From: Haloterrigena salina JCM 13891
GTDB taxonomy: Archaea > Halobacteriota > Halobacteria > Halobacteriales > Natrialbaceae
Length of the DNA: 64,000 nt
Direction: 5' to 3'
Assembly (NCBI RefSeq): GCF_000337495.1
Contig: NZ_AOIS01000067.1
Span: forward strand, 149,466 to 213,465
Shown: positions 4,045 through 36,836 of the stretch, piece by piece
Numbering within the stretch: position 1 is the stretch's first letter
Layout: each line of letters begins with the position of its first letter
Position numbers and translations under genes: made by a program
Notes under the pieces: generated by a model
What the model was told of the DNA's origin: nothing
The model's input: the letters and a program-made list of their open reading frames with translations, nothing else
The model's database searches: none

Positions 4045-4134
4045 TCGGCTAGTCGATCGACACGCCGATCTGTCGCATTCTCAGTCGTCGCTACCGGTGC
4101 TAACCGATAACTCGCTCCGCGTCGACGCCCGAGT

Positions 4135-4644
4135 ATGGGTACTAATAACATTCCACAGCTAGATGTCGAGATCCCGGAGCTCTCGCAGGTCGCGTTCGTC
4201 GTCGAGGACCTCGAGGACGGCATGGATCGGTTCGACGGACTCCTCGGCATCGGGCCGTGGGAGATCCACCGATTCGAACCGCCCGCGCTGACCGATCGGA
4301 CCTACCGCGGCGAGTCCCGCGAGTACTCGATGCGCCTCGCGCTCGCGCAACTCAGCGGGACGATGATCGAACTGATCGAACCGCTCGAGGGGCCGAGCAT
4401 CTACACGGAGCACCTGGAGGAACACGGCGAAGGCCTCCACCACGTCGCCTGTTTCGCGTTCGACGATCCCCACGCGGTCGTCGACGAGTTCGAGTCCGCG
4501 GGGCTACCTGTGCTCCAGAGCGGGAACTTCGACGGTACCGAGTTCTGGTACTTCGACACCGCCGACGAACTCAACGGCGCGATCTTCGAGACCGCGGCGA
4601 ACGTGGAGTCGATGCCGGAAGCGGACGCGACCTATCCCGAGTAG
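4135..4644 (+). CDS. VOC-fold (glyoxalase/epimerase-like) protein
   Basis: A 169-residue protein of the vicinal-oxygen-chelate superfamily, built of two beta-alpha-beta-beta-beta modules. Module 1 starts QVAFVVEDLEDGMDRF and ends with MIELIEPL; module 2 starts LHHVACFAFDDP and ends GAIFETA. These supply the usual four metal ligands as Gln, Glu, His, Glu, the first being Gln instead of the more common His. The layout is close to methylmalonyl-CoA epimerase and related dioxygenase-like enzymes, but the substrate cannot be read from the sequence. It stands alone after aroC, 90 bases downstream, with its own start. Confidence 0.8.
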   Translation: MGTNNIPQLDVEIPELSQVAFVVEDLEDGMDRFDGLLGIGPWEIHRFEPPALTDRTYRGESREYSMRLALAQLSGTMIELIEPLEGPSIYTEHLEEHGEGLHHVACFAFDDPHAVVDEFESAGLPVLQSGNFDGTEFWYFDTADELNGAIFETAANVESMPEADATYPE

Positions 4645-4689
4645 CGCGGTCGCGCAGTCGCGACGTTCCCGCCGGGCGACCGCCGACGG

Positions 4690-5094
4690 CTACAGCCGTT
4701 CCCACGCGATGTCCATCGGCGTCTCGTCCCCGACGAGCTGCGAGACGTGACAGCCCCGCTCGCCGAAGTCGACGAGGCGATCGACCGTCTCGTCGTCGGC
4801 GTCGGTCTCGAGTCGAATCGTCGCCTCGAGGCGGTCGACCGAGCCCCGTTCGGGTTCGGCCTCGGTCGTGACCTCGATGGTCTCGACCGGCGTCTCGCGC
4901 TTGTTCGCCTGGAAGCGAACGCTCAGCGAGAGACAGGAGGCCAGCGCGCCGAGGAAGACGTCGACCGGCGTCGGTCCTGTCTCCGAGCCGCCGGCCGACT
5001 CGGGTTCGTCGAACCGCCACTCGAACGAGCCGGCTTCGATAGTCCCGCCCATCCCTTCCGGGTTCCGGGCGGTGACGGTTCGCTCGGGCATCAT
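4690..5094 (-). CDS. OsmC/Ohr-family protein
   Basis: A roughly 134-residue OsmC-family protein, typically a thiol-dependent peroxidase acting on organic hydroperoxides in the cytosol. The two family cysteines are present: one in LGALASCLSLSVRF on the central helix and one in ERGCHVSQLV near the C-terminus. The N-terminal strand segment contains FEWRFDEPESAGGSETGPTP, which leads to the typical P(V/L)D.FLGAL motif. Start choice is between adjacent ATGs at 5094 and 5091; a longer upstream frame is open but basic in composition and was not used. It converges with the VOC gene. The specific substrate is unknown. Confidence 0.85.
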   Translation of the reverse strand: MMPERTVTARNPEGMGGTIEAGSFEWRFDEPESAGGSETGPTPVDVFLGALASCLSLSVRFQANKRETPVETIEVTTEAEPERGSVDRLEATIRLETDADDETVDRLVDFGERGCHVSQLVGDETPMDIAWERL

Positions 5095-5320
5095 TCGCGG
5101 ACCACCTCGATCGACGTCGGCGTCAATGCTGGCGTCGGCGACCGTCGTTTCGATTCCGCGCCGCGATCGGCGGACCGCGAGCGGTCGAGGTCCCGTCTTC
5201 GGTGTGCTGGTACGCGCATGTCGTTCGATCCTCACCGTTCGAGCTAATAAACGGCCGCCTACGGGCATCGATCTTGGTCACCGTTAGCGTTATACACTGT
5301 TCCATGGTACCGTGTGTCGC

Positions 5321-6367
5321 ATGGCCGACTACACACTAGAAACGGAGGAGGGGCGACGGGAGGCGCTCCGTCGAATGCTGACGATCCGCGAGTTCGATTC
5401 GACGGCCGGCGACTACTTCGCCGACGGAGAGATCCCGGGCTTCGTCCACCTGTATATCGGGGAAGAGGCAGTCGGTGTCGGCGCGTGCGCCGCGCTCGAG
5501 CCCGACGACTACATCGCGAGCACGCACCGGGGCCACGGACACTGCATCGCGAAGGGGTTGGACCCGAAGCTGATGATGGCCGAGCTGTTCGGCAAGCAGG
5601 ACGGCTACTGCAACGGGAAGGGCGGCTCGATGCACATCGCCGACGTCGACTCCGGGATGCTCGGCGCGAACGGCATCGTCGGCGCGGGGCCGCCGCTGGC
5701 GACCGGCGCCGCGCTGTCGATCGATTACGACGACCGCGAGCAGGTGGCTGTCGGCTTCCTCGGCGACGGCGCCGTCGCACAGGGACAGGTACACGAGGCG
5801 ATCAACCTCGCGGCGACCTGGGACCTGCCGGCGGTCTTCGTCGTCGAGAACAACCGCTACGGTGAGGGGACGCCCGTCGAGGAGCAGCACAACGTCGACG
5901 ACCTGAGCGACACCGCCGGCGCCTACGACATCCCCGGCGTCACCGTCGACGGAATGGACGTCACGGCCGTCGCCGAGGCCGTCGAGGAGGCGCGCAAGCG
6001 CGCTCGAGACGGCGACGGACCGACCATCGTCGAGGCCGAGACCTACCGCTACCGCGGCCACTACGAGGGCGACGAGCAGCCCTACCGAGACGAGGACGAG
6101 ATCGAGAAGTGGAAGGAACAGGACCCGATCGACCGGTTCTCGGAGCTGCTGGTCGATCGCGGCGAACTGACCGAGGAGGAACTCAAGGAGCTGCGGGACG
6201 AGATCGAGGCGGAGATCGAGGAAGCGGTCGAGTACGCTCAGGACGCCCCGCTACCGGACCCGAGCGAAGCCTACGAGGACATGTTCGCGGAGATGCCACC
6301 CGAGATCGAACGGTTCGCCAGCCAGGCCCGTGCGGACGGCGGTTCGCTCGGAGGTGATCGGCGATGA
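5321..6367 (+). CDS. Thiamine-diphosphate-dependent 2-oxoacid/acetoin dehydrogenase E1, alpha subunit
   Basis: A 348-residue E1 alpha subunit. The thiamine diphosphate-binding motif runs from GDGAVAQGQVHEA (from residue 148) to VVENNRYGEGT, the classical GDGX(~25-30)NN pattern. Other family blocks are FVHLYIGEEAVGVG, STHRGHGHCIAKG and GKGGSMHIAD. It decarboxylates a 2-oxoacid or cleaves acetoin and passes the acyl group to the lipoyl arm of E2. It overlaps the E1 beta gene by 4 bases and is followed by an AcoX-like gene, an order like bacterial acetoin dehydrogenase (aco) operons. Because porAB nearby should oxidise pyruvate, acetoin or a branched-chain 2-oxoacid is the more likely substrate; this is inference. 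Confidence 0.88.
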   Translation: MADYTLETEEGRREALRRMLTIREFDSTAGDYFADGEIPGFVHLYIGEEAVGVGACAALEPDDYIASTHRGHGHCIAKGLDPKLMMAELFGKQDGYCNGKGGSMHIADVDSGMLGANGIVGAGPPLATGAALSIDYDDREQVAVGFLGDGAVAQGQVHEAINLAATWDLPAVFVVENNRYGEGTPVEEQHNVDDLSDTAGAYDIPGVTVDGMDVTAVAEAVEEARKRARDGDGPTIVEAETYRYRGHYEGDEQPYRDEDEIEKWKEQDPIDRFSELLVDRGELTEEELKELRDEIEAEIEEAVEYAQDAPLPDPSEAYEDMFAEMPPEIERFASQARADGGSLGGDRR

Positions 6368-7371
6368 CCGCCCAGGCCGAGATCGAGCGCGCCGAGGAGA
6401 CCGAGGCGATGACCGTCCGCGAGGCGATCCGGATGGGGCTGCGTGAGGAACTCGAGCGCGACGAGGACGTCTACCTGATGGGCGAAGACGTCGGCAAGTT
6501 CGGTGGCGTCCTCGAGGTGACCAGCGGCCTCTGGGAGGAGTTCGGCGACGAACGCGTCCGCGACACGCCGATCAGCGAGGCCGGCTTCATCGGCGCCGCG
6601 ACCGGCGCCGCCGCGACCGGGACCCGGCCCGTCGCCGAGCTCATGTTCTCGGACTTCATGGGCGTCTCGATGGAGCAGATCATGAACCAGATGGCGAAGA
6701 TGCGCTACATGTTCGGCGGGAAGACGGAGATGCCGGTCACCGTCCGGACGACCGAGGGCGGCGGCATGGGCGCCGCGAGCCAGCACTCCGGGACGGTCCA
6801 CGCCTGGATCGCTCACTTCCCCGGCCTGAAGGCCGTCGCGCCGGGGACGGCCGCCGCAGCGAAGGGACTGACGAAGGCCGCGGTCCGGTCGGACGACCCC
6901 GTGTTCGTCTTCGAGAACAAGATGATCTACGAGCAGCAGGGCGAGGTCCCCACCGACGAGGAGTTCACCGTCCCCCTCGGCGAGGCCGCGGTCGAACGCG
7001 AGGGCGAGGACGTCACCGTGGTGGCGACCCAGCGGCTCGTCGGCGAGAGCCTGCAGACCGCCGACAGTTTGGCCGACGACGTCAGCGTCGAAGTCATCGA
7101 CGTCCGCTCGCTGTACCCGCTGGACACGGAGACCATCGCCGACAGCGTCCGGAAGACCGGCCGGCTGGTGGTCGCCGACGAGAGTCCGCTCTCCTACGGC
7201 GTCCACGCCGAGATCGTCAGCCGCGTCCAGGAGGAGGCCTTCTTCAGCCTCGACGCCCCGATCCAGCGGATCGGGACGCCGGACACCCACATGCCGTTCA
7301 GCCCCCCGCTCGAGCAGGAGGTCCTCCCCGACGGCGACGACGTACGGGAGGCGATCGAGCTGATCACGTAG
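6364..7371 (+). CDS. 2-oxoacid/acetoin dehydrogenase E1, beta subunit
   Basis: A 335-residue E1 beta subunit, partner of the preceding gene in an alpha2-beta2 E1. Its ATG lies inside the end of the alpha gene (gcgatga), so the two are translationally coupled. Typical segments are VYLMGEDVGKFGG, DTPISEAGFIGAATGAA, PVAELMFSDFMG and the C-terminal transketolase part VEVIDVRSLYPLDTETI with SPLSYGVHAEIVSRV. The subunit completes the thiamine diphosphate site and binds the peripheral-subunit-binding domain of E2. The length is normal. No E3 (dihydrolipoamide dehydrogenase) gene is visible in the window, so it would have to be supplied from elsewhere. Confidence 0.9.
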   Translation: MTAQAEIERAEETEAMTVREAIRMGLREELERDEDVYLMGEDVGKFGGVLEVTSGLWEEFGDERVRDTPISEAGFIGAATGAAATGTRPVAELMFSDFMGVSMEQIMNQMAKMRYMFGGKTEMPVTVRTTEGGGMGAASQHSGTVHAWIAHFPGLKAVAPGTAAAAKGLTKAAVRSDDPVFVFENKMIYEQQGEVPTDEEFTVPLGEAAVEREGEDVTVVATQRLVGESLQTADSLADDVSVEVIDVRSLYPLDTETIADSVRKTGRLVVADESPLSYGVHAEIVSRVQEEAFFSLDAPIQRIGTPDTHMPFSPPLEQEVLPDGDDVREAIELIT

Positions 7372-7399
7372 CGATGGCAGCGAGCCACGGAGCCGACGC

Positions 7400-8419
7400 G
7401 TGACCCGCGTCGGACTCATCGCGAACCCGGCCGCCGGCCGCGACATCCGGCGGCTCACCGGCGGCGCGAGCGTCGTCGACAACTACGCCAAGCGCCGCGT
7501 CGCCGAGTGCGTCCTCGAGGGGCTGGCCGTCGTCACCGAGCCGCCGGACGTCGCGGTCATGCCCGACCGGAGCGGCATCGCCGACCACGCCGTTTCCGAG
7601 GCGCCCGACGATCTCGCGGTCGAACGCGTGGAGATGACGGTCGAGGAGTCGGCCGCGGACACGCGACGGGCGGCCGCGCGCTTCCGCGAGAGCGCCGATG
7701 CCGTCGTCGTCCTCGGCGGCGACGGCACCACCCGCGACGTCGCGCTCGAGATCGGCGACGTTCCGCTAGTTTCCGTCTCGACGGGGACGAACAACGTCGT
7801 GCCGACGCCGGTCGACGGCACCGTCGCTGGGGCGGCCGCGGCCGCGGTCGCGACCGGCGCCGCGGACGCCGACGCGGTAACCGATCGGCACGGGCGGATC
7901 GACGTTCGAGCGGACGACGTCAACGGCGAGAAGCGACTCACCGGACTGGCGGCGGTCGAGATCACGGACCGATCGTTCGTCGGCACGCGGGCCGTCATCG
8001 ATCCGTCCGAACTGGTCGGGGGCGTCGTCTCGCGGGCGCACCCGAGCGACATCGGCCTCGGGAGCGTCGCCGGCTGTCTCGAGCCGCTGGCACCCGACGC
8101 GCTGGGCGGGGTCGCGCTCCGTCTCGACGATCCCGAGGCGACGGCGCGGTCGGTCTCGGCGATCGTCGCGCCCGGGATGACGGCGACGATCGGAGTCACC
8201 GAGCGCGACCGGCTGGAGTGGGACGAGCCGGCGACCTTCGACGTGTCGGACGTCGTCGTCGGCGCGGACGGCGAGCGCGAACTCGAGGTCGTGGACGCGA
8301 CGGTCGAGATGACGCCGACTGCCGACGGGCCGCGACTCGTGGACGCCGACGCCGCGCTCGGCGCCGCCGTCGAGGCGGGCGCGCTGGTCCGCGAGGGTCC
8401 GCTGCTCGAGGAGCGGTAG
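7400..8419 (+). CDS. AcoX-like NAD-kinase-superfamily protein
   Basis: A 339-residue protein starting at a GTG (7400), 28 bases after the E1 beta stop; an ATG at 7374 runs into a stop at once and was rejected. It opens GLIANPAAGRDIRRLTGGAS, and residues 106-110 are GGDGT, the phosphate-binding motif of ATP-NAD/diacylglycerol kinases; STGTNNVVP follows. This matches the AcoX family found in bacterial acetoin-catabolism operons, whose biochemical role is still unclear. The position directly behind E1 alpha and beta strengthens the acetoin-type reading of the cluster. It is not the housekeeping NAD kinase: it is longer and has a different C-terminal half. Confidence 0.75.
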   Translation: MTRVGLIANPAAGRDIRRLTGGASVVDNYAKRRVAECVLEGLAVVTEPPDVAVMPDRSGIADHAVSEAPDDLAVERVEMTVEESAADTRRAAARFRESADAVVVLGGDGTTRDVALEIGDVPLVSVSTGTNNVVPTPVDGTVAGAAAAAVATGAADADAVTDRHGRIDVRADDVNGEKRLTGLAAVEITDRSFVGTRAVIDPSELVGGVVSRAHPSDIGLGSVAGCLEPLAPDALGGVALRLDDPEATARSVSAIVAPGMTATIGVTERDRLEWDEPATFDVSDVVVGADGERELEVVDATVEMTPTADGPRLVDADAALGAAVEAGALVREGPLLEER

Positions 8420-23776: not shown

Positions 23777-26700
23777 TTAGGAGTCGCCGCCGAATCGAGC
23801 GCGCACCCGACCGTCGCGATCGGCGAGGCGCGACTCGAGGACCGGAATGGGATCTCGGTCTGCGTCCTCGAGCGGCGACTCGTCGTCCGACTGGGCACAC
23901 GCGGCCAGCGCGCCGGCGGCCGTCGCTCGGACGTCCGCGTCGGGGTCCTCGAGCGCCGCGAGCAGCGCCGGCACGGCGTCCGCGAAGCCGGCCGGGTCGT
24001 CGTCGGCCATCATCTCGAGGATTCGGCCGGCGGTGACCCGGACGACGGGACTGTCGGCCCCGAGCCCGCCGGCGATTTTCTCGATCCCGGTCGGTCGGAG
24101 CGTCGCAGACTCGTCGGCCAGCACGGCCAGCGCGAGGACGGCGAGGCCGGCGACCCACGGCTCCGCGTCCAGCCGGTCGCCCATCCCCGAGAGCTGGGTG
24201 TTGATCCCGTCGGTGTGGGTCGGCGTCTCGCCGCCGGCCGCCAGCGAGGCGGCGTCGAGCAGTCGGTCGTCGACCGCCTCGAGTTCGGATTCCAACGCGC
24301 TTCCGTCGTCGCGGCCGGTGACCGCGAGGGTGCCGAGCGCGAGCGCGGCGTAGCCCCGGATCGCCTCGTCGTCAGGCTCTCCGTCCCCGCTCCGTCCGGC
24401 ACCTCCCGCCCGCTCCGCGAGCAGGTCGGCCAGTCGGTCTCGCCCGGCCGCCGCGTCGTCGGGCGCCGTCGCCGCGAGCCGGGCGAGCTCCCCCGCGGTC
24501 GCGCGTCGGTCTCCGTCGGCATCGAGCCGATCGACCAGCGCTCCGGTGACGGTGCCGGCGTCGCCGCCGTCCGCCGCGACGGCCGTCGTCAGCGCGCGCA
24601 GGAGCGCCGGCGCGTCGGCCTCGCCCGGCGCGAACCGCTCGAGCAGCGACGGGACGGCCGCGGCGACCGGCTCCGAGTTCCGCTGTGCGACGTCCCCGAG
24701 CGCGGCGGCGACGGCGGCCGACCGGTCGTCGTCCGATAGCGACTCGAGAACCACGTCGGTCGGCGTCGGTTCGACGTCTGCGTCCGCCGCGAGCGTCGTC
24801 TCGAGCGCGTCCAGCGCCGCGACGCGAACGGCCGACGTCGGATCGACCAGCAGCTCACGGAGCGCTTCGACGACGGCTTCGGCCTCCGCTCCGGACTCGA
24901 AGCCGAGCGTGGCGAGAGCCTCGCAGGCGGCGACGCGGACCCGCTCCGCCTCGGCCGTCGTCTCCGCGACGGCCAGCGACAGTGTCGGCCGACAGTCGTT
25001 GCCGGCGTCGGATGCGACCTCGGCGAGGGTCCGGCGAACGGTCCGGCGAACGGAACGATCCGGATCGTCCAGCGCCGTCAGCAAGGAGACCAACACGTCG
25101 TCCTCGCGGACGTCGTCGGGAGTCGACGCCGCGACCCGCGAGAGGGCGATCGCCGCGTTGTTCCGAACCGTCGCGTCCTCGTCGGCGCTCCGCGCCTCCC
25201 CCCCGAGCCGTTCTGCCAGCGGGCCGACGGCGCCGCGAACCGCCAGCGGGCGTTCGGCCGCGACGGTCACGAGATCCCGCGTCGCGGCCCGCCGAACGGC
25301 GGCCGCGTCGTCGTCGAGCCGCCGGGTCAGCGACCGGACCGCCGGATGGGCGTCGGCGGTCGCCGACCGCGCGACGTCGGCGATGCCGCGGGCCGCGTGC
25401 CCCTGAACCCACTCGTCGCCCTCTTCCGAGGCGTTCTCCGCCTCGCCCTCGAGGGCCTCGAGGAGCGCGGAAACGTCGGTCCCCTCGGCACGCGTCTCAC
25501 GTGCGAGCGCGGCCAGCGCGTCGGTCGCGGGCCGGCGGACCGGTTCGTGGGGGTCGTCGATCCGATCCGCGAGGGCGGGGACGACCGGTCCGATCGCGTT
25601 CGGCGAGGACGCCGCTACGGCGGCGATCGCCCGGGCCGCATCGAGGCGAACGCTCTCGTCGTCGGCGTCGGCGACGGCGGCCAGTTCGGTCACGACGGGT
25701 TCGACCGCGTCCGGTTGCGCGTCCGCGACAGCCGCGATCGCCGTGACGCCGTGACGCTGAACCGGTTCGACGTCCGTCTCCAACCGTCGGGCCAGCGGGC
25801 GGACGGCGTCGGCGATCGCGGTCGGGCGCTCCGCCGCAACCGATGCGAGTGTCCCGGCGGCGTCCGTCCGAACGGCCTCGAGCGGGTCGTCGAGCCGGGC
25901 GACGAGCGCGGCGGTCGCCGACGCGACGCCGGCGGGTTCGGCCGCCGCGATTTCGCGCAGCGCGCCGACGCACTCGCGGCGGATCGCCGCCGCGTCGTCG
26001 AGTCGATCCGCAAGTCGATCGACGGCGTCGACGACCGCCCCGGGTCGATCGGTCGCGATCGACTCGAGGGCGAGGGCGGCGTCGTGACGGACCCCTTCTC
26101 GGTCGTCCGCGAGGCGGGCGGCGATCGGATCGACCGCGTCGGCGACGGCCGCCGGCGAGTCGTCGGCGATCGCTCGAAGCGCTTCCATCGCGTAGCCGCC
26201 GATCGCTCCGGCCTCGGCGGACGCGGTCGCGCCGTCCGGGTCGTCCGCCTGGTCCTCGAGTCGGTCGACCAGCGCCGGGACGGACTCGAGGACCGCGTCG
26301 GGAGCGGCCGTCGCGACCGCCGCGAGAACCGCCGTCGCGTTCTCGCGGACGGCGGCCGTCTCGTCGTCGGCCGCGGCGGCGACATCGTCGACGACGGCGA
26401 CGACCTGTTCGGGCTGGGCATCGGCGACGGCCGCGAGCGCGTCGGTCGTCCGAACCCTGACCCGCTCGTTCCCGTCGGTCGCGTAGCGCCCGAGCGCCTC
26501 GATCGAGTCGGCGACTGCTGCGGGAGCTTCGGCCGCGACGGCCGCGAGCGCGTCGGCCGCGTCCGCGCGGACGGTCGCACTCGCGGCTTCGTCGCTCGTC
26601 CTCGAGGCGCTCCGCGCCTCGCCCTCCAGCCGGTCGGTCAGCGCGGGGATCGACTCGCGAACGGCGCCGGGATGGTCGGCCGCGACGGCGGACAGCGCGG

Positions 26701-26941
26701 CGGCGGCGTGGGATCTGATCGACGGCTCGTCCTCGAGGCGGTCGGTCAGCGCCGGGACGGCCGAGCGAACGTCCGCCGGCCGCTCGGCGGCCTTCGTGGC
26801 GAGCGTGCGCGCGGCGTACTCACGAACGTCGGGATCGTCGGCCGCGAGGAACTCCTCGAGTTGATCGATTCCGACGGTGACTTCGATCCCGTCGCCCCCT
26901 CCGATTCCCGGTCCGTCAGCGATTTTGTCGGGTCCTGACAT
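23777..26941 (-). CDS. Very long HEAT-repeat (PBS-lyase-type) protein
   Basis: A 1054-residue protein made almost wholly of HEAT-like helical repeats of about 38-43 residues, roughly 25 of them. Recurring units look like AVPALTDRLEDEPSIRSHAAAALSAVA and AVDRLADRLDDAAAIRRECVG in pieces; each has an A-helix ending LxxRLDD and a B-helix VRxxAAxALxxIA. The first 25 residues are a non-repeat acidic leader (DGIEVTVGIDQLEEFLAADD). There is no signal peptide, membrane helix or catalytic domain, so a cytosolic scaffold is likely; some family members are lyases acting on bilin, but without nearby partners that cannot be claimed. The gene is alanine-rich and extremely G+C-rich, giving long empty frames on the other strand. 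Confidence 0.8.
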   Translation of the reverse strand: MSGPDKIADGPGIGGGDGIEVTVGIDQLEEFLAADDPDVREYAARTLATKAAERPADVRSAVPALTDRLEDEPSIRSHAAAALSAVAADHPGAVRESIPALTDRLEGEARSASRTSDEAASATVRADAADALAAVAAEAPAAVADSIEALGRYATDGNERVRVRTTDALAAVADAQPEQVVAVVDDVAAAADDETAAVRENATAVLAAVATAAPDAVLESVPALVDRLEDQADDPDGATASAEAGAIGGYAMEALRAIADDSPAAVADAVDPIAARLADDREGVRHDAALALESIATDRPGAVVDAVDRLADRLDDAAAIRRECVGALREIAAAEPAGVASATAALVARLDDPLEAVRTDAAGTLASVAAERPTAIADAVRPLARRLETDVEPVQRHGVTAIAAVADAQPDAVEPVVTELAAVADADDESVRLDAARAIAAVAASSPNAIGPVVPALADRIDDPHEPVRRPATDALAALARETRAEGTDVSALLEALEGEAENASEEGDEWVQGHAARGIADVARSATADAHPAVRSLTRRLDDDAAAVRRAATRDLVTVAAERPLAVRGAVGPLAERLGGEARSADEDATVRNNAAIALSRVAASTPDDVREDDVLVSLLTALDDPDRSVRRTVRRTLAEVASDAGNDCRPTLSLAVAETTAEAERVRVAACEALATLGFESGAEAEAVVEALRELLVDPTSAVRVAALDALETTLAADADVEPTPTDVVLESLSDDDRSAAVAAALGDVAQRNSEPVAAAVPSLLERFAPGEADAPALLRALTTAVAADGGDAGTVTGALVDRLDADGDRRATAGELARLAATAPDDAAAGRDRLADLLAERAGGAGRSGDGEPDDEAIRGYAALALGTLAVTGRDDGSALESELEAVDDRLLDAASLAAGGETPTHTDGINTQLSGMGDRLDAEPWVAGLAVLALAVLADESATLRPTGIEKIAGGLGADSPVVRVTAGRILEMMADDDPAGFADAVPALLAALEDPDADVRATAAGALAACAQSDDESPLEDADRDPIPVLESRLADRDGRVRARFGGDS

Positions 26942-32941: not shown

Positions 32942-35900
32942 TCACAACGGGACGAACGGGAGCGTCGCCAGCGAGTCCGCGTCGTACGCGAGCGCTTCGG
33001 ACTGGTCGACGTCCGGCGGCGTCAGGAGGTCGACGATTCGCGGCGCGTTCTCGACCGCGTCTTCGCGCGCGCCGCCGAAGACGTAGCCCTCGGCCTCGAC
33101 GCCGACGGCGCGGAACGTCCCGCGGTCCTCGGAGCCGACCACGGGGACGACCTCGGCGTTCGCGATATCAACGCCGAGCGCGTCCTTCGCGACCGAGAGA
33201 ACGGCCGTATCGCCCTCGAAGTCGACGATAGTCGTCGGCGATCCGAGGTCGGTCCCGGCCGCGTCGACGACGCTCGAGCCGAAGCCGCTGGCGGCGACGC
33301 GGTAGTGCCAGTCGTCGTCGAACGCGGCGGTGACCTCCAGGTCGCCGAGTTCGGTGGACCGACCGCCGTCTGCGGACGGGTCTCGGAGATAGACCGCGAA
33401 GTAGTGGGGCGAGAACTCCCCGCCGAAGGTGTCGTAGAGCTCCTCGACTTCGAAGGCGAACCGATACGCGTCGCCGGCCTCGTAGACGGCGAACGAGCGC
33501 AGGTCGAACGCGCCCTCCCGGAAGTCGTCGCTGGTCGGGTAGGTGTACTCGCCGGGGCCGTGGTCGTCGCCGGCCGGGTCGTCGAACTCGGCGACGAGGT
33601 CGCCGGGAGCGACGGTGACCGTTTCGGACGCGAGGACGGTCCCGTCGTCCGGGTCGCGCAGGACGACGTCGTACGTGCCGATCGACGCGATCGCGTAGCC
33701 GAGTTCGACGGTCTCGTCGGTCGCACCGGGCGAGAGTCGCACGTTGTCGACGGTCTCGCGCTCGCCGTCGATCCCGATCGCGATCGTCGTCCCGCCGACG
33801 AAATCGCCGTCGTTCGAGCCGGTGGCCGTAATGAACGGCTCGCCGAGCCCCGCCTGATCGTCGATCTCGTAACGCACGTCCTGGGAAGGGCGCTCGTAGG
33901 TCGGGAGCTCCTCGCGTTCCTCGCCCGTCGCGGGACGGAGTCGGATCGCCGTTCCGCCGCTGCGGGCCATCGACGCGAGGACCGTCGCGCTCGGATCGAC
34001 GACGGCCTCGTCGATCCTGACGGTCTCGGGATCGGACTCGTAGCCGCCGCCGAGGCCGTCCGAGTAGATCTCGGCGACGTACTTGGGGCCCTTGGGATCG
34101 TTGGCGCTGCCGTTCGAGCCCGTTCCGCGGCCCTGATCGCCCGAACTCCCCGGCGCGAGGAACTCGAGCGGCACGTCGACCGCGCGGCCGCCCTCGTCGG
34201 TCATCGCGCCGACGTACCACTCCTCGCCCTTTCGGCGGGCGGTGACGACGTAGTCGCCGATCTCGCTATCGACGACGTTCGTCTCGTCCCAGCCGGCCGC
34301 GGGAACGCTCTCGATGAACTCGAAGGCGGGTTTCGCGTCGAAGTTCTCGTTCTCGGGCGTGTAGCCCTCGTACTCGGCCGGGACCGGAGACGGCGCGTCT
34401 GGTTCGCTGACCCCGATCGTGTTGAGGTTGAAGCCGCCGACGTCGCCCTCGAACTCCTCGCCATCGTCGTACTGCAGTTCGATCGCGATCTCGTTGTCGC
34501 CGTCCTCGAGGTCGATCTCCGTCGTGAAGACCTCCCACTGGTCCCAGTAGCCGGTGAAGTCGGGGTTGACGGTCGTCGTCTCGCCGTTGACGCGCAGCGT
34601 CGCCTGGGTTTCGCCGGCCTCGACGACTCGCTGGGCGTTATCCTCGGGTGCTGCTGCGTATCGGAGGTGGAGTTCGTGCGTACCCGCGTCGGCGTCTTCG
34701 ACGGTGAAGGAGACCGACGACCCCGACGGGACGCGATTGGGGTCGACCGCGACGTAGTTCGTCCCGAAGGCGTTTCGCCACTCGTCTAACGTGACGAAGC
34801 CGTCGATGTCGCCCGAGGCGGCCTGCAGACACTCGCCGACAGCGAGGGTCTCGTCGACGTAGGCCTCGACGCGGTCGGCGACCATCTGCAGCCCGCTCAG
34901 GTAGTTCGGGTACAGGGCGAGCTGTTTCGCCCGCGTCGTCTGGATCTGCCCGCCCCGGTCGTCGTTGAACGTGATATCGAAGATTCCGGGCTGGTAGCTG
35001 ACCGGGCCGGCCAGATTCCGCGTGAACGGCAGCGTGACGTGGTGGTCCGGATCGACGTCGGCGCTCAACTGCTCGAAGCCGTCGTACTCCTGGGCCTTGA
35101 CGACCTCGCGGTTGGCCACGTTGGGGTAGGTCCGGATCTCCCCGGTCGGCTTGATCCCCTCGTGGATCTCGAGCAGTTGGCGGTTCGCGGCGGCGGCTTC
35201 GATGACGAGTCGATGGTGATTGATCGCGAGCTGGTTGTGCTGATTGTGCGTCGGCTCGGAGCCGTCGCCATCGATCCCCAGCCCTTCGTCGGAGACGTAG
35301 CCGTTCTTGATCGAGTGAATGCCGACGTCCTCGTACTGCCGGAAGATGTCGTCCTCGAGGATCTGGTCCTCGTAGTGGGGCAGCGCGCCCGCGGTCTCGT
35401 TGTGGATCGTCATCTCCACGTCGGACTCGAGCGAGCGCCCGAAGTCGGTCACCTCGCGGACGTCGAAGTCGGGGTAGGAGTCGTCGACGCCGAACTCGAG
35501 TCCGGTACCGTCGCCGGGATAGGTGTCCCAACCCTCATTCCATCCCTCGACGAGGACGCTGTCGAGACCGTTCTCCGCGGCGAAGTTCATGTACCGCTTC
35601 ATCCGTTCGGTCCGGGCGCCGTGGACGTATCCCGCCGCCTCCTCGGGGCTCTCGAACGAGTCGTCCGGACGGTACTCCCAGTTTGCGGAGCCGGCGATCA
35701 TCGTCCACCAGATGCCGACGTACTTTCGCGGCTCGATCCAGTCGATGTCTGGCTCGCCGTCGACGGTCGGCATGGCCGACTCCTTCAGGTCGGCGCTCAA
35801 CAGCGGGATCAGCTCCGACTCGATCAGATCGCCCGGCCGGCGGCCGATCTGGATCGTCCGCCACGGCGTCGCGTTTGGGAGTTCCAGCGACGCTTTCGTC

Positions 35901-36781
35901 CCGTCCGGCAGCGGCGTGAGCTCCGTGACGAGCTCCGTCCCGCCCTCGTCGGATCGCGGCGCGAGCGTCGCGGCCGCGTAGTCCTCGAGGTCCGCCTCGT
36001 GAACGCTCAGGTAGACGTCGCCGTCGCCTGCTTCGACGGTCAGCGGCGTGTGCGCGCCGTTTCGCATCGGCGTCCCCGTGGGCCGAGTCTCCCGCGAGCC
36101 GCCGGGAATCTCGCTGAGCGGCGTCTCCTCGTACTCCTGTTCGAACCGGGGGTTGGTGACTTCGTTTCGGATCCACCAGGCGGTGTCATCGTCGGCGAAC
36201 GCGAACGCGGTGTTCTCCGACGTGACGACGGCCCGTCCGCTGTTGCTCGCGAAACTGTCACCGAACACGACTCGGAGGCCGACCCCGTCGTCGAAGACGC
36301 GGACCTCGAGGTTCGCCGACCGGTCCGGTTCGGCCGTCTCCTCGAGTCCGACGATCAGCGCGTTGTACTCGGCGCTCACGCGGTCGTACGAGCCCCAGAC
36401 GGGCTCCCAGACCTCCGTTTCCGACGCGCGCTCGCTTCCGATGACCGCGACCTCGGAACCGGTCGTGCCGTCCGCGCTCGCTCCGAACGACGACTGGTTC
36501 CGGAAGTCGAATCCGATCGGTGACGGCTCGAGATAGGTCGTACCGTCGACCGCCACCGCGTAGCGCGGGGTCCCGTCGGAGACGTCGACGGTCACCTCGA
36601 CGGTGCCGTCCGGCGAACTGACGCGCTGGACTGCGTCGTCGTCGCCGTTCGCGACTCGCGCCGCCGCGCGTTCGGGGACGGCTCGCGTGTACGCTGCCGC
36701 GGCCGCGAGTCCCGTTACACCGCCGAGGAACTGACGGCGACTCGAACGAGAGAACGATTGTTGTAAATGTTCTTCAGGCAT
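32942..36781 (-). CDS. Secreted GH97-family glycosidase with inserted and C-terminal binding domains
   Basis: A 1279-residue exported glycoside hydrolase. Residues 14-42 are a Tat signal (SRRQFLGGVTGLAAAAA). A GH97 N-terminal beta-sandwich spans about 52-345 and the (beta/alpha)8 domain about 350-640, with acidic residues Glu462 (IHNETAGALP) and Glu541 (LEIHEGIKPTGEIRTYP) matching the inverting alpha-glucosidase type (SusB-like). Residues about 645-815 are an insertion resembling a carbohydrate-binding module; the GH97 sequence resumes at PAFEFIESVP. After a linker, residues 1062-1255 resemble the C domain of glucodextranases (DDPAGDDHGPGEYTYP). It probably attacks alpha-glucans outside the cell. 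A promoter-flanking inverted repeat lies at its start. Confidence 0.9.
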   Translation of the reverse strand: MPEEHLQQSFSRSSRRQFLGGVTGLAAAAAYTRAVPERAAARVANGDDDAVQRVSSPDGTVEVTVDVSDGTPRYAVAVDGTTYLEPSPIGFDFRNQSSFGASADGTTGSEVAVIGSERASETEVWEPVWGSYDRVSAEYNALIVGLEETAEPDRSANLEVRVFDDGVGLRVVFGDSFASNSGRAVVTSENTAFAFADDDTAWWIRNEVTNPRFEQEYEETPLSEIPGGSRETRPTGTPMRNGAHTPLTVEAGDGDVYLSVHEADLEDYAAATLAPRSDEGGTELVTELTPLPDGTKASLELPNATPWRTIQIGRRPGDLIESELIPLLSADLKESAMPTVDGEPDIDWIEPRKYVGIWWTMIAGSANWEYRPDDSFESPEEAAGYVHGARTERMKRYMNFAAENGLDSVLVEGWNEGWDTYPGDGTGLEFGVDDSYPDFDVREVTDFGRSLESDVEMTIHNETAGALPHYEDQILEDDIFRQYEDVGIHSIKNGYVSDEGLGIDGDGSEPTHNQHNQLAINHHRLVIEAAAANRQLLEIHEGIKPTGEIRTYPNVANREVVKAQEYDGFEQLSADVDPDHHVTLPFTRNLAGPVSYQPGIFDITFNDDRGGQIQTTRAKQLALYPNYLSGLQMVADRVEAYVDETLAVGECLQAASGDIDGFVTLDEWRNAFGTNYVAVDPNRVPSGSSVSFTVEDADAGTHELHLRYAAAPEDNAQRVVEAGETQATLRVNGETTTVNPDFTGYWDQWEVFTTEIDLEDGDNEIAIELQYDDGEEFEGDVGGFNLNTIGVSEPDAPSPVPAEYEGYTPENENFDAKPAFEFIESVPAAGWDETNVVDSEIGDYVVTARRKGEEWYVGAMTDEGGRAVDVPLEFLAPGSSGDQGRGTGSNGSANDPKGPKYVAEIYSDGLGGGYESDPETVRIDEAVVDPSATVLASMARSGGTAIRLRPATGEEREELPTYERPSQDVRYEIDDQAGLGEPFITATGSNDGDFVGGTTIAIGIDGERETVDNVRLSPGATDETVELGYAIASIGTYDVVLRDPDDGTVLASETVTVAPGDLVAEFDDPAGDDHGPGEYTYPTSDDFREGAFDLRSFAVYEAGDAYRFAFEVEELYDTFGGEFSPHYFAVYLRDPSADGGRSTELGDLEVTAAFDDDWHYRVAASGFGSSVVDAAGTDLGSPTTIVDFEGDTAVLSVAKDALGVDIANAEVVPVVGSEDRGTFRAVGVEAEGYVFGGAREDAVENAPRIVDLLTPPDVDQSEALAYDADSLATLPFVPL

Positions 36782-36836
36782 CCAAATAGTGCCTGTCACA
36801 CCCTCGCACATAAATGTAAGGGACATTCACAACAAC
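36757..36836. promoter_or_regulatory. Inverted repeat flanking the GH97 promoter
   Basis: attgttgtaaatgt (36757-36770) and acattcacaacaac (36823-36836) are inverted copies with 12 of 14 matching positions. They bracket the GH97 start codon and a TATA-like sequence (cttacatttatg on the minus strand, 36809-36820). The left arm lies inside the first GH97 codons. The layout fits a regulator that bends or loops the promoter; the MATE gene starts to the right. Confidence 0.4.

Follow-up and report, generated by a model that had tools for sequence, protein, structure and literature searches.

What is a carbohydrate-binding-like domain doing within the catalytic region of a family 97 glycoside hydrolase (GH97)? 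This question is raised by a minus-strand GH97 gene (Table 1) in the stretch of DNA analysed here, 64,000 nucleotides from the haloarchaeon Haloterrigena salina JCM 13891 (contig NZ_AOIS01000067.1, positions 149,466 to 213,465; hereafter the window). A first-pass annotation of this gene had proposed that a module resembling CBM6 and CBM35 interrupts the enzyme at a point where other GH97 proteins run on directly. We find that the interruption is a separate CBM35-type domain, which in a predicted structure splits the catalytic barrel, and which appears to have entered the gene once in the ancestry of a haloarchaeal GH97 branch.

The GH97 match ends after LQMVADRVEAYVD (residues 646-658, bases 34853-34891) and resumes at PAFEFIESVP (residues 833-842, 34301-34330), as had been described. 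The extra segment between D658 and P833 comprises 174 residues, which refines the bounds first given (34337-34849, about 170 residues) to 34331-34852. In alignments with three solved GH97 chains (PDB IDs: 8wg0, 8wg1 and 5hq4), at most three residues separate the flanking points, and no insert is present; in the 8wg0 alignment, for example, the break spans query residues 656 to 832 but only chain residues 584 to 588. The surrounding GH97 domains all exceed their curated Pfam cut-offs (GH97_N, 197.9 versus 25.3 bits; Glyco_hydro_97, 272.6 versus 32.5; GH97_C, 81.1 versus 25), with the last two bounded at residues 360-660 and 846-963. These boundaries at 660 and 846 first suggested an ordinary interdomain linker.

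A structure of residues 66-1078 was predicted with AlphaFold2 from a 34-row alignment (predicted local distance difference test, pLDDT, 89.1; predicted template modelling score, pTM, 0.91). In this model the GH97 fold is complete and the insert is looped out as a domain of its own rather than forming part of the normal fold, with 646 residues superposing on PspAG97A (5hq4) at 1.9 Å (Z 45.2); for SusB entries the superposition spans 650-666 residues (Z 42.3-42.4). By strand count, E477 ends β3, E556 follows β5, E574 ends β6 and E580 follows β6, which agrees with the reported location of GH97 bases in loops β3-α3 and β5-α5 and of the acid in β6-α6 (PMC12446779; papers given by PMC number are cited from excerpts throughout). 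Strand β8 (residues 646-648, LQM) is followed in the model by the insert and then by helix α8 (835-840), with C-terminal domain strands beginning at residue 848. Because of this order, the insert is placed in loop β8-α8, where it would split the (β/α)8 barrel, a stronger statement than the earlier one that it lies within the catalytic region and not at an end. The β-to-α loops of such barrels form the active-site face, and it is on this catalytic face that the modelled insert would lie. Furthermore, query residue 656 has SusB residue 607 as its aligned counterpart, so that the insertion point falls inside the barrel limits of BtGH97a (318-636; PMC2670981). An interdomain linker was ruled out on both counts, namely the helix α8 that follows the insert and the extent of the BtGH97a barrel.

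When searched alone, the insert (a 173-residue segment) matched CBM_6 and CBM_35, among others, under their Pfam gathering scores (19.7 versus 28.9 bits, E 0.0011; 14.2 versus 28 bits, E 0.057). Among 28 insert-bearing relatives, CBM_6 was matched by 25 and CBM_35 by 22 at E ≤ 0.1, with best values of 2.4e-9 and 1.3e-4, respectively. Since the gathering scores are not reached, we apply the name “CBM35-type” on the grounds of fold and profile kinship. A phmmer search with the insert core alone returned designed β-trefoils (best 5.7e-7) built of short pieces each weak alone, and a profile of the 28 inserts was used instead. Searched against the PDB, this profile best matched a GH31 6-α-glucosyltransferase (5x7o, 1.2e-13) and the cycloalternan-forming enzyme (5f7u, 4.9e-10), followed by the CBM35 of CsxA (1.6e-8) and isomaltodextranase (5awo, 1.9e-6). 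The CBM35-type regions of 5x7o, 5f7u and 5awo, which are among the closest PDB sequence relatives of the insert, differ from it in lying late in the chain and outside the barrel (874-966 and 1001-1100 of 1263 residues, 942-1060 of 1063, and 502-598 of 610, respectively).

Structural comparison gave a similar picture. The predicted structure of the insert alone (pLDDT 75.6, pTM 0.77) had the GH66 cycloisomaltooligosaccharide glucanotransferase (CITase) 3wnl as its top Foldseek match (4.2e-7), and its best VIA-align match was 5x7o (Z 11.8, 2.5 Å, 124 residues), with Z 10.4-10.6 to CITase over the inserted CBM35 of that enzyme (chain 419-547). Taken within the full model, the insert aligned to the free CBM35 4qb1 with Z 16.4 (1.8 Å, 124 residues). 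Both strand peptides quoted in the first-pass annotation are present (residues 715-732 and 777-792), and its proposal of a CBM6/35-type domain within GH97 is supported by profile, fold and phylogeny. Because CBM6/35 relatives are recognisable and the segment is conserved in haloarchaeal relatives, its presence is not due to chance.

Two sugar-contact features are conserved in CBM6/35 modules, namely the Trp of region A and the Asn of region C, residues 104 and 135 of BT0996-C (PMC9843283). Their likely equivalents here, W761 and N800, are present in 55/56 and 56/56 insert-bearing rows of the alignment described below and count among the positions that are invariant in the insert; they were assigned by motif and spacing rather than by superposition, being 31-32 residues apart in shorter inserts, like positions 104 and 135 of BT0996-C. 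The row without W761 (L029, 7966-8430, Halorubrum) carries an insert shortened in frame by about 29 residues, with loss of the WDxW motif, through either a real deletion or an assembly fault.

Profile searches across the class identified GH97 matches in 114 of 391 genomes, at 147 places, and 133 insert matches in 109 genomes, where 8 insert candidates were scored for each genome listed. At 112 of the 147 places (100 genomes) the insert directly follows GH97, and at 35 it does not; seven of these 35 cover the GH97 profile incompletely and carry little weight, and 28 reach profile position 274 or 275, past the insertion point. Both kinds of place occur in 14 genomes, in two of which (G279 and G357) the insert-free place is a fragment only. 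Apart from the 112 insert matches that adjoin GH97, two are second pieces of split inserts and 19 are weaker matches elsewhere, one of which (L074) lies in a protein that by eye resembles a β-helix polysaccharide enzyme. An assembly artefact or frameshift was ruled out by the open frame and by the recurrence of the insert at the 112 places, in 100 genomes including the present one.

Among 70 aligned proteins, 147-180 residues occupy the insertion point in 56 and 1-15 residues in 14 (74 ORFs, i.e. open reading frames, less four fragments, two from L020 and one each from L035 and L036; the window copy counted once; L043 without an ORF match). In a tree computed with the insert columns removed, by a quick method that gave long-branch warnings among insert-free rows, the trait maps to one change (Shimodaira-Hasegawa-like approximate likelihood ratio, SH-aLRT, 100). 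In bacteria, the insert was absent from all 36 GH97 loci examined, which have 4-9 residues at this point against 177 in the window protein; these loci comprise the 30 best-ranked places and 6/6 of a second set, two of them repeating the genes of L038 and L041. The insert profile gave only weak, partial matches, namely in 6/247 genomes of the G394 class, in 2/229 of the G391 class (for both classes, no more than 13-14 candidates per genome were scored) and in 1/6 genomes of the bacterial loci; in the class of G394 none of these adjoins a GH97 match when places are compared by eye, and in that of G391 the GH97 search covered 210 genomes. Within the loci and genomes covered, presence of the same insert in bacteria was rejected, and the segment is not a feature of all GH97 members. 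While the count of changes alone tells neither gain nor loss, the insert-free bacterial loci favour gain, and the simplest reading of the sequences is one insertion in the ancestor gene of a haloarchaeal GH97 branch. Haloarcula amylovorans (L021) carries adjoining GH97 genes without (4045-7440) and with (7827 onward) the CBM35-type insert, a natural control pair; one Haloarcula GH97 protein also appears in PMC1249566. Among the matches listed from the open-licence PMC literature, no title or abstract start describes a GH97 enzyme with an inserted CBM35. As far as these matches show, the combination and the position of the module are new, the GH97 family and the CBM35 module type each being known.

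The residues of the barrel suggest which type of GH97 enzyme received the insert. All four equivalents of BtGH97a Glu439, Glu508, Glu526 and Glu532, whose catalytic or calcium roles are described in PMC2670981, are present in the alignment as E477, E556, E574 and E580. Of the calcium Glu and catalytic acid positions (BtGH97a E194, E526 and E532), the latter two align with E574 and E580, and E229, placed from the alignment, is the likely equivalent of E194. As both base positions are Glu (E477 and E556) and Gly509 stands where retaining members have their nucleophile Asp, the catalytic set is predicted to be of the inverting α-glucoside type. The inverting enzymes SusB/BtGH97a (2jka), PspAG97A (5hq4) and FjGH97A (8wg0) share GH97_N, the barrel, GH97_C and the catalytic and calcium Glu residues with the window protein (fold Z 42-45), and differ from it in lacking a β8-α8 insert (8wg0, 8wg1, 5hq4) and in their general-base motif. 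A second GH97 of the same genome (G000:C3:128606-129307; L078:1366-3087; a 594-residue open frame) has no insert and carries the retaining-type motifs KVDF and HG.

Based on these features, the reading that we favour, and consider probable, is that of a calcium-dependent inverting exo-α-glucosidase whose CBM35-type insert holds an α-glucan chain beside the active-site pocket. The domain would have entered the short β8-α8 loop, on the active-site face, in the gene ancestral to one haloarchaeal GH97 branch. Its region-A Trp and region-C Asn might now grip the chain next to the pocket, lengthening the binding site beyond it, while the enzyme would trim polymeric chains or long oligomers, starting at the non-reducing end. 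Glucodextran_C, absent in some relatives, would serve as a second accessory module. The closest parallel is found in the GH66 CITases (PaCITase, 3wnk; PsCITase, 5x7g), which act on α-glucans and in which a CBM35 likewise interrupts a (β/α)8 barrel at a loop of the catalytic face (PMC5408701). In CITase the loop 7 CBM35 and the barrel form a groove with isomaltooligosaccharide subsites -4 to -7, and the amount of cyclic product fell by about 65% in the W515A mutant and by about 25% in W507A (PMC5408701). By analogy with this groove, the GH97 insert, located on the same face but in the next loop, would hold the chain where it emerges from the exo-pocket. The two differ in loop (7 versus 8), in catalytic domain (GH97 here, with no GH66 domain and no superposition of whole chains) and in reaction (a cyclising transglucosylase versus a predicted inverting exo-hydrolase). 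More tentatively, and with somewhat less than even confidence, we consider that a CBM35 was captured twice independently by a loop of the catalytic face, once in GH66 and once in haloarchaeal GH97, that the module became part of the cleft in both, and that the result here is a polymer-holding, possibly processive enzyme, instead of an oligosaccharide-trimming one, which works without an α-amylase partner.

A number of observations weigh against this reading. CBM35s bind many sugars, and several good matches of the insert bind uronates, xylan or galactose. The likely CBM35 calcium positions (Glu, Glu, Asp), taken from the 5f7u alignment and from spacing to N800, read Q668, A670 and N802, such that the structural calcium of the module may have been lost in the window protein. 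The motifs HNET (found in 64/70 aligned rows) and KNGY depart from the pair described for inverting members of GH97, HHET and K(T/S)GY, one HNET sequence being listed among six outliers of unsure type (PMC2670981), and the sole NCBIfam GH97 match is to a retaining α-galactosidase model, far under cut-off (173 of 800 bits). With regard to the CITase parallel, whole-chain superposition gave root-mean-square deviations of 11.7-24.4 Å, indicating a different placement of the module, and according to PMC5408701 activity survived the groove mutations Y470A and Y519A, while the main product stayed the same in every mutant. No glycoside hydrolase was found among 10 scanned neighbouring ORFs of the window, and no GH13, GH57 or GH66 match in the whole genome (listed as 99.3% complete). 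Finally, salt-lake haloarchaeal isolates did not use dextran in PMC9726719.

With regard to the substrate, haloarchaeal GH97s are listed by annotation as amylose exo-α-1,4-glucosidases in a table of PMC13260240. Among characterised relatives, FjGH97A and PspAG97A prefer α-1,6 linkages and act on dextran, and SusB prefers α-1,4 (PMC10316084). The sole dextran-using soda-lake isolate listed in the excerpt of PMC9726719 has three glycoside hydrolase genes with no GH97 among them, and dextran as a substrate of the present enzyme is doubtful. Control genomes with a match numbered 13/14 for GH13 (Haloferax volcanii included), 9/14 for GH57 and 2/14 for GH66; the H. salina genome has one GH15 match. 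Given the lack of GH13, GH57 and GH66 matches in the genome, the enzyme may have to degrade polymer unaided by the customary endo-amylases; alternatively, it may act on something other than starch.

A rival view is that the CBM35-type domain acts as an independent tether to starch, to exopolysaccharide or to a glycan on the cell's own surface, with loop β8-α8 merely tolerating the insertion. This is consistent with the short loop of the bacterial loci, which would be easily lengthened, and with the C-terminal accessory modules, which vary in the five relatives scanned as they do in ordinary modular enzymes. Binding modules are, however, usually found at protein ends, whereas the present module interrupts the modelled barrel; across the 56 insert-bearing rows the insertion point is the same and the length similar (147-180 residues) while C-termini vary, and the whole-model pTM hints at a defined placement. 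We regard a tether as rather unlikely. That the insert no longer binds sugar and is instead a structural prop, capping or stabilising the barrel in high salt or shifting oligomerisation, would fit the degenerate calcium ligands and the CBM35-like domain of dextran dextrinase, which lacks sugar-binding residues and is needed for activity (PMC12446779), but is improbable given the invariance of the likely sugar-contact Trp and Asn.

Beyond the insert, the protein probably is exported. SRRQFLGG is, we presume, a twin-arginine translocation (Tat) motif; profiles for this signal all stayed under cut-off (Pfam TAT_signal, E 0.48; TIGR01409, E 0.14; TIGR02811, E 0.029). Haloarchaeal GH97s are mostly listed as Tat-exported in the table of PMC13260240. 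The start codon is unsettled between 36826 and 36781 (Met16, the start used in the first-pass annotation), as the exact alignment begins at residue 16 for 16/41 related loci and at an earlier residue for 11/41. At the other end, the second extra domain proposed earlier is indeed Glucodextran_C, the sole Pfam match of the C-terminal piece at E ≤ 0.001; the GH15 glucodextranase (1ug9/1ulv) shares this region only (phmmer 4.9e-12; Pfam) and belongs to another catalytic family. The all-β segment between GH97_C and Glucodextran_C matched no Pfam family at the same threshold. Among the insert-bearing relatives scanned, L018 has two Glucodextran_C stretches, L030 has BetaGal_ABD2, and L022 and L027 have no Pfam match at the C-terminus.

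Table 1. Features of the GH97 gene, with positions in the window.
Feature	Residues	Position	Strand	Basis
GH97 gene, possible start at 36781 (Met16)	1-1294	32942..36826	-	ORF and related-locus alignment
Putative Tat-type signal, SRRQFLGG then Ala-rich stretch	29-50	36677..36742	-	Sequence motif
GH97_N	69-344	35795..36622	-	PF14508, E 2.2e-58
GH97 (β/α)8 barrel, first part, β1 to β8	360-658	34853..35749	-	PF10566, E 4.7e-81
Barrel Glu codons	E477; E556; E574; E580	35396-35398; 35159-35161; 35105-35107; 35087-35089	-	Residue mapping
Inserted CBM35-type domain (strands from about 666 to 807)	659-832	34331..34852	-	Profile, fold, alignment
Likely region-A Trp; likely region-C Asn	W761; N800	34544-34546; 34427-34429	-	Motif and spacing
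Barrel helix α8 (835-840) and GH97_C	833-963	33938..34330	-	PF14509, E 7.2e-23; model secondary structure
Small all-β segment	about 984-1076	33599..33877	-	Model secondary structure
Glucodextran_C	1078-1288	32963..33595	-	PF09985, E 1.4e-53

Elsewhere in the window, eight further ORFs showed nothing sugar-related, and a 1054-residue ORF with HEAT-like repeats lies at 23780-26941 (-). Scans of 10 ORFs in related loci identified the insert-free GH97 of L021 and no glycoside hydrolase among the other nine. The scanned gene neighbourhoods gave no pointer to the substrate.

Taken together, these results define a haloarchaeal GH97 subfamily by a seemingly single, inherited domain insertion, which could shape the substrate cleft, as the first-pass annotation had suggested. 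The enzyme is also a candidate for α-glucan use in an archaeon that has one GH15 match and none to GH13, GH57 or GH66. Insert-free paralogues, some in the same genome or, as in L021, next door, provide ready controls, and the insert-bearing branch offers a natural experiment in the merging of a binding module with a catalytic site.

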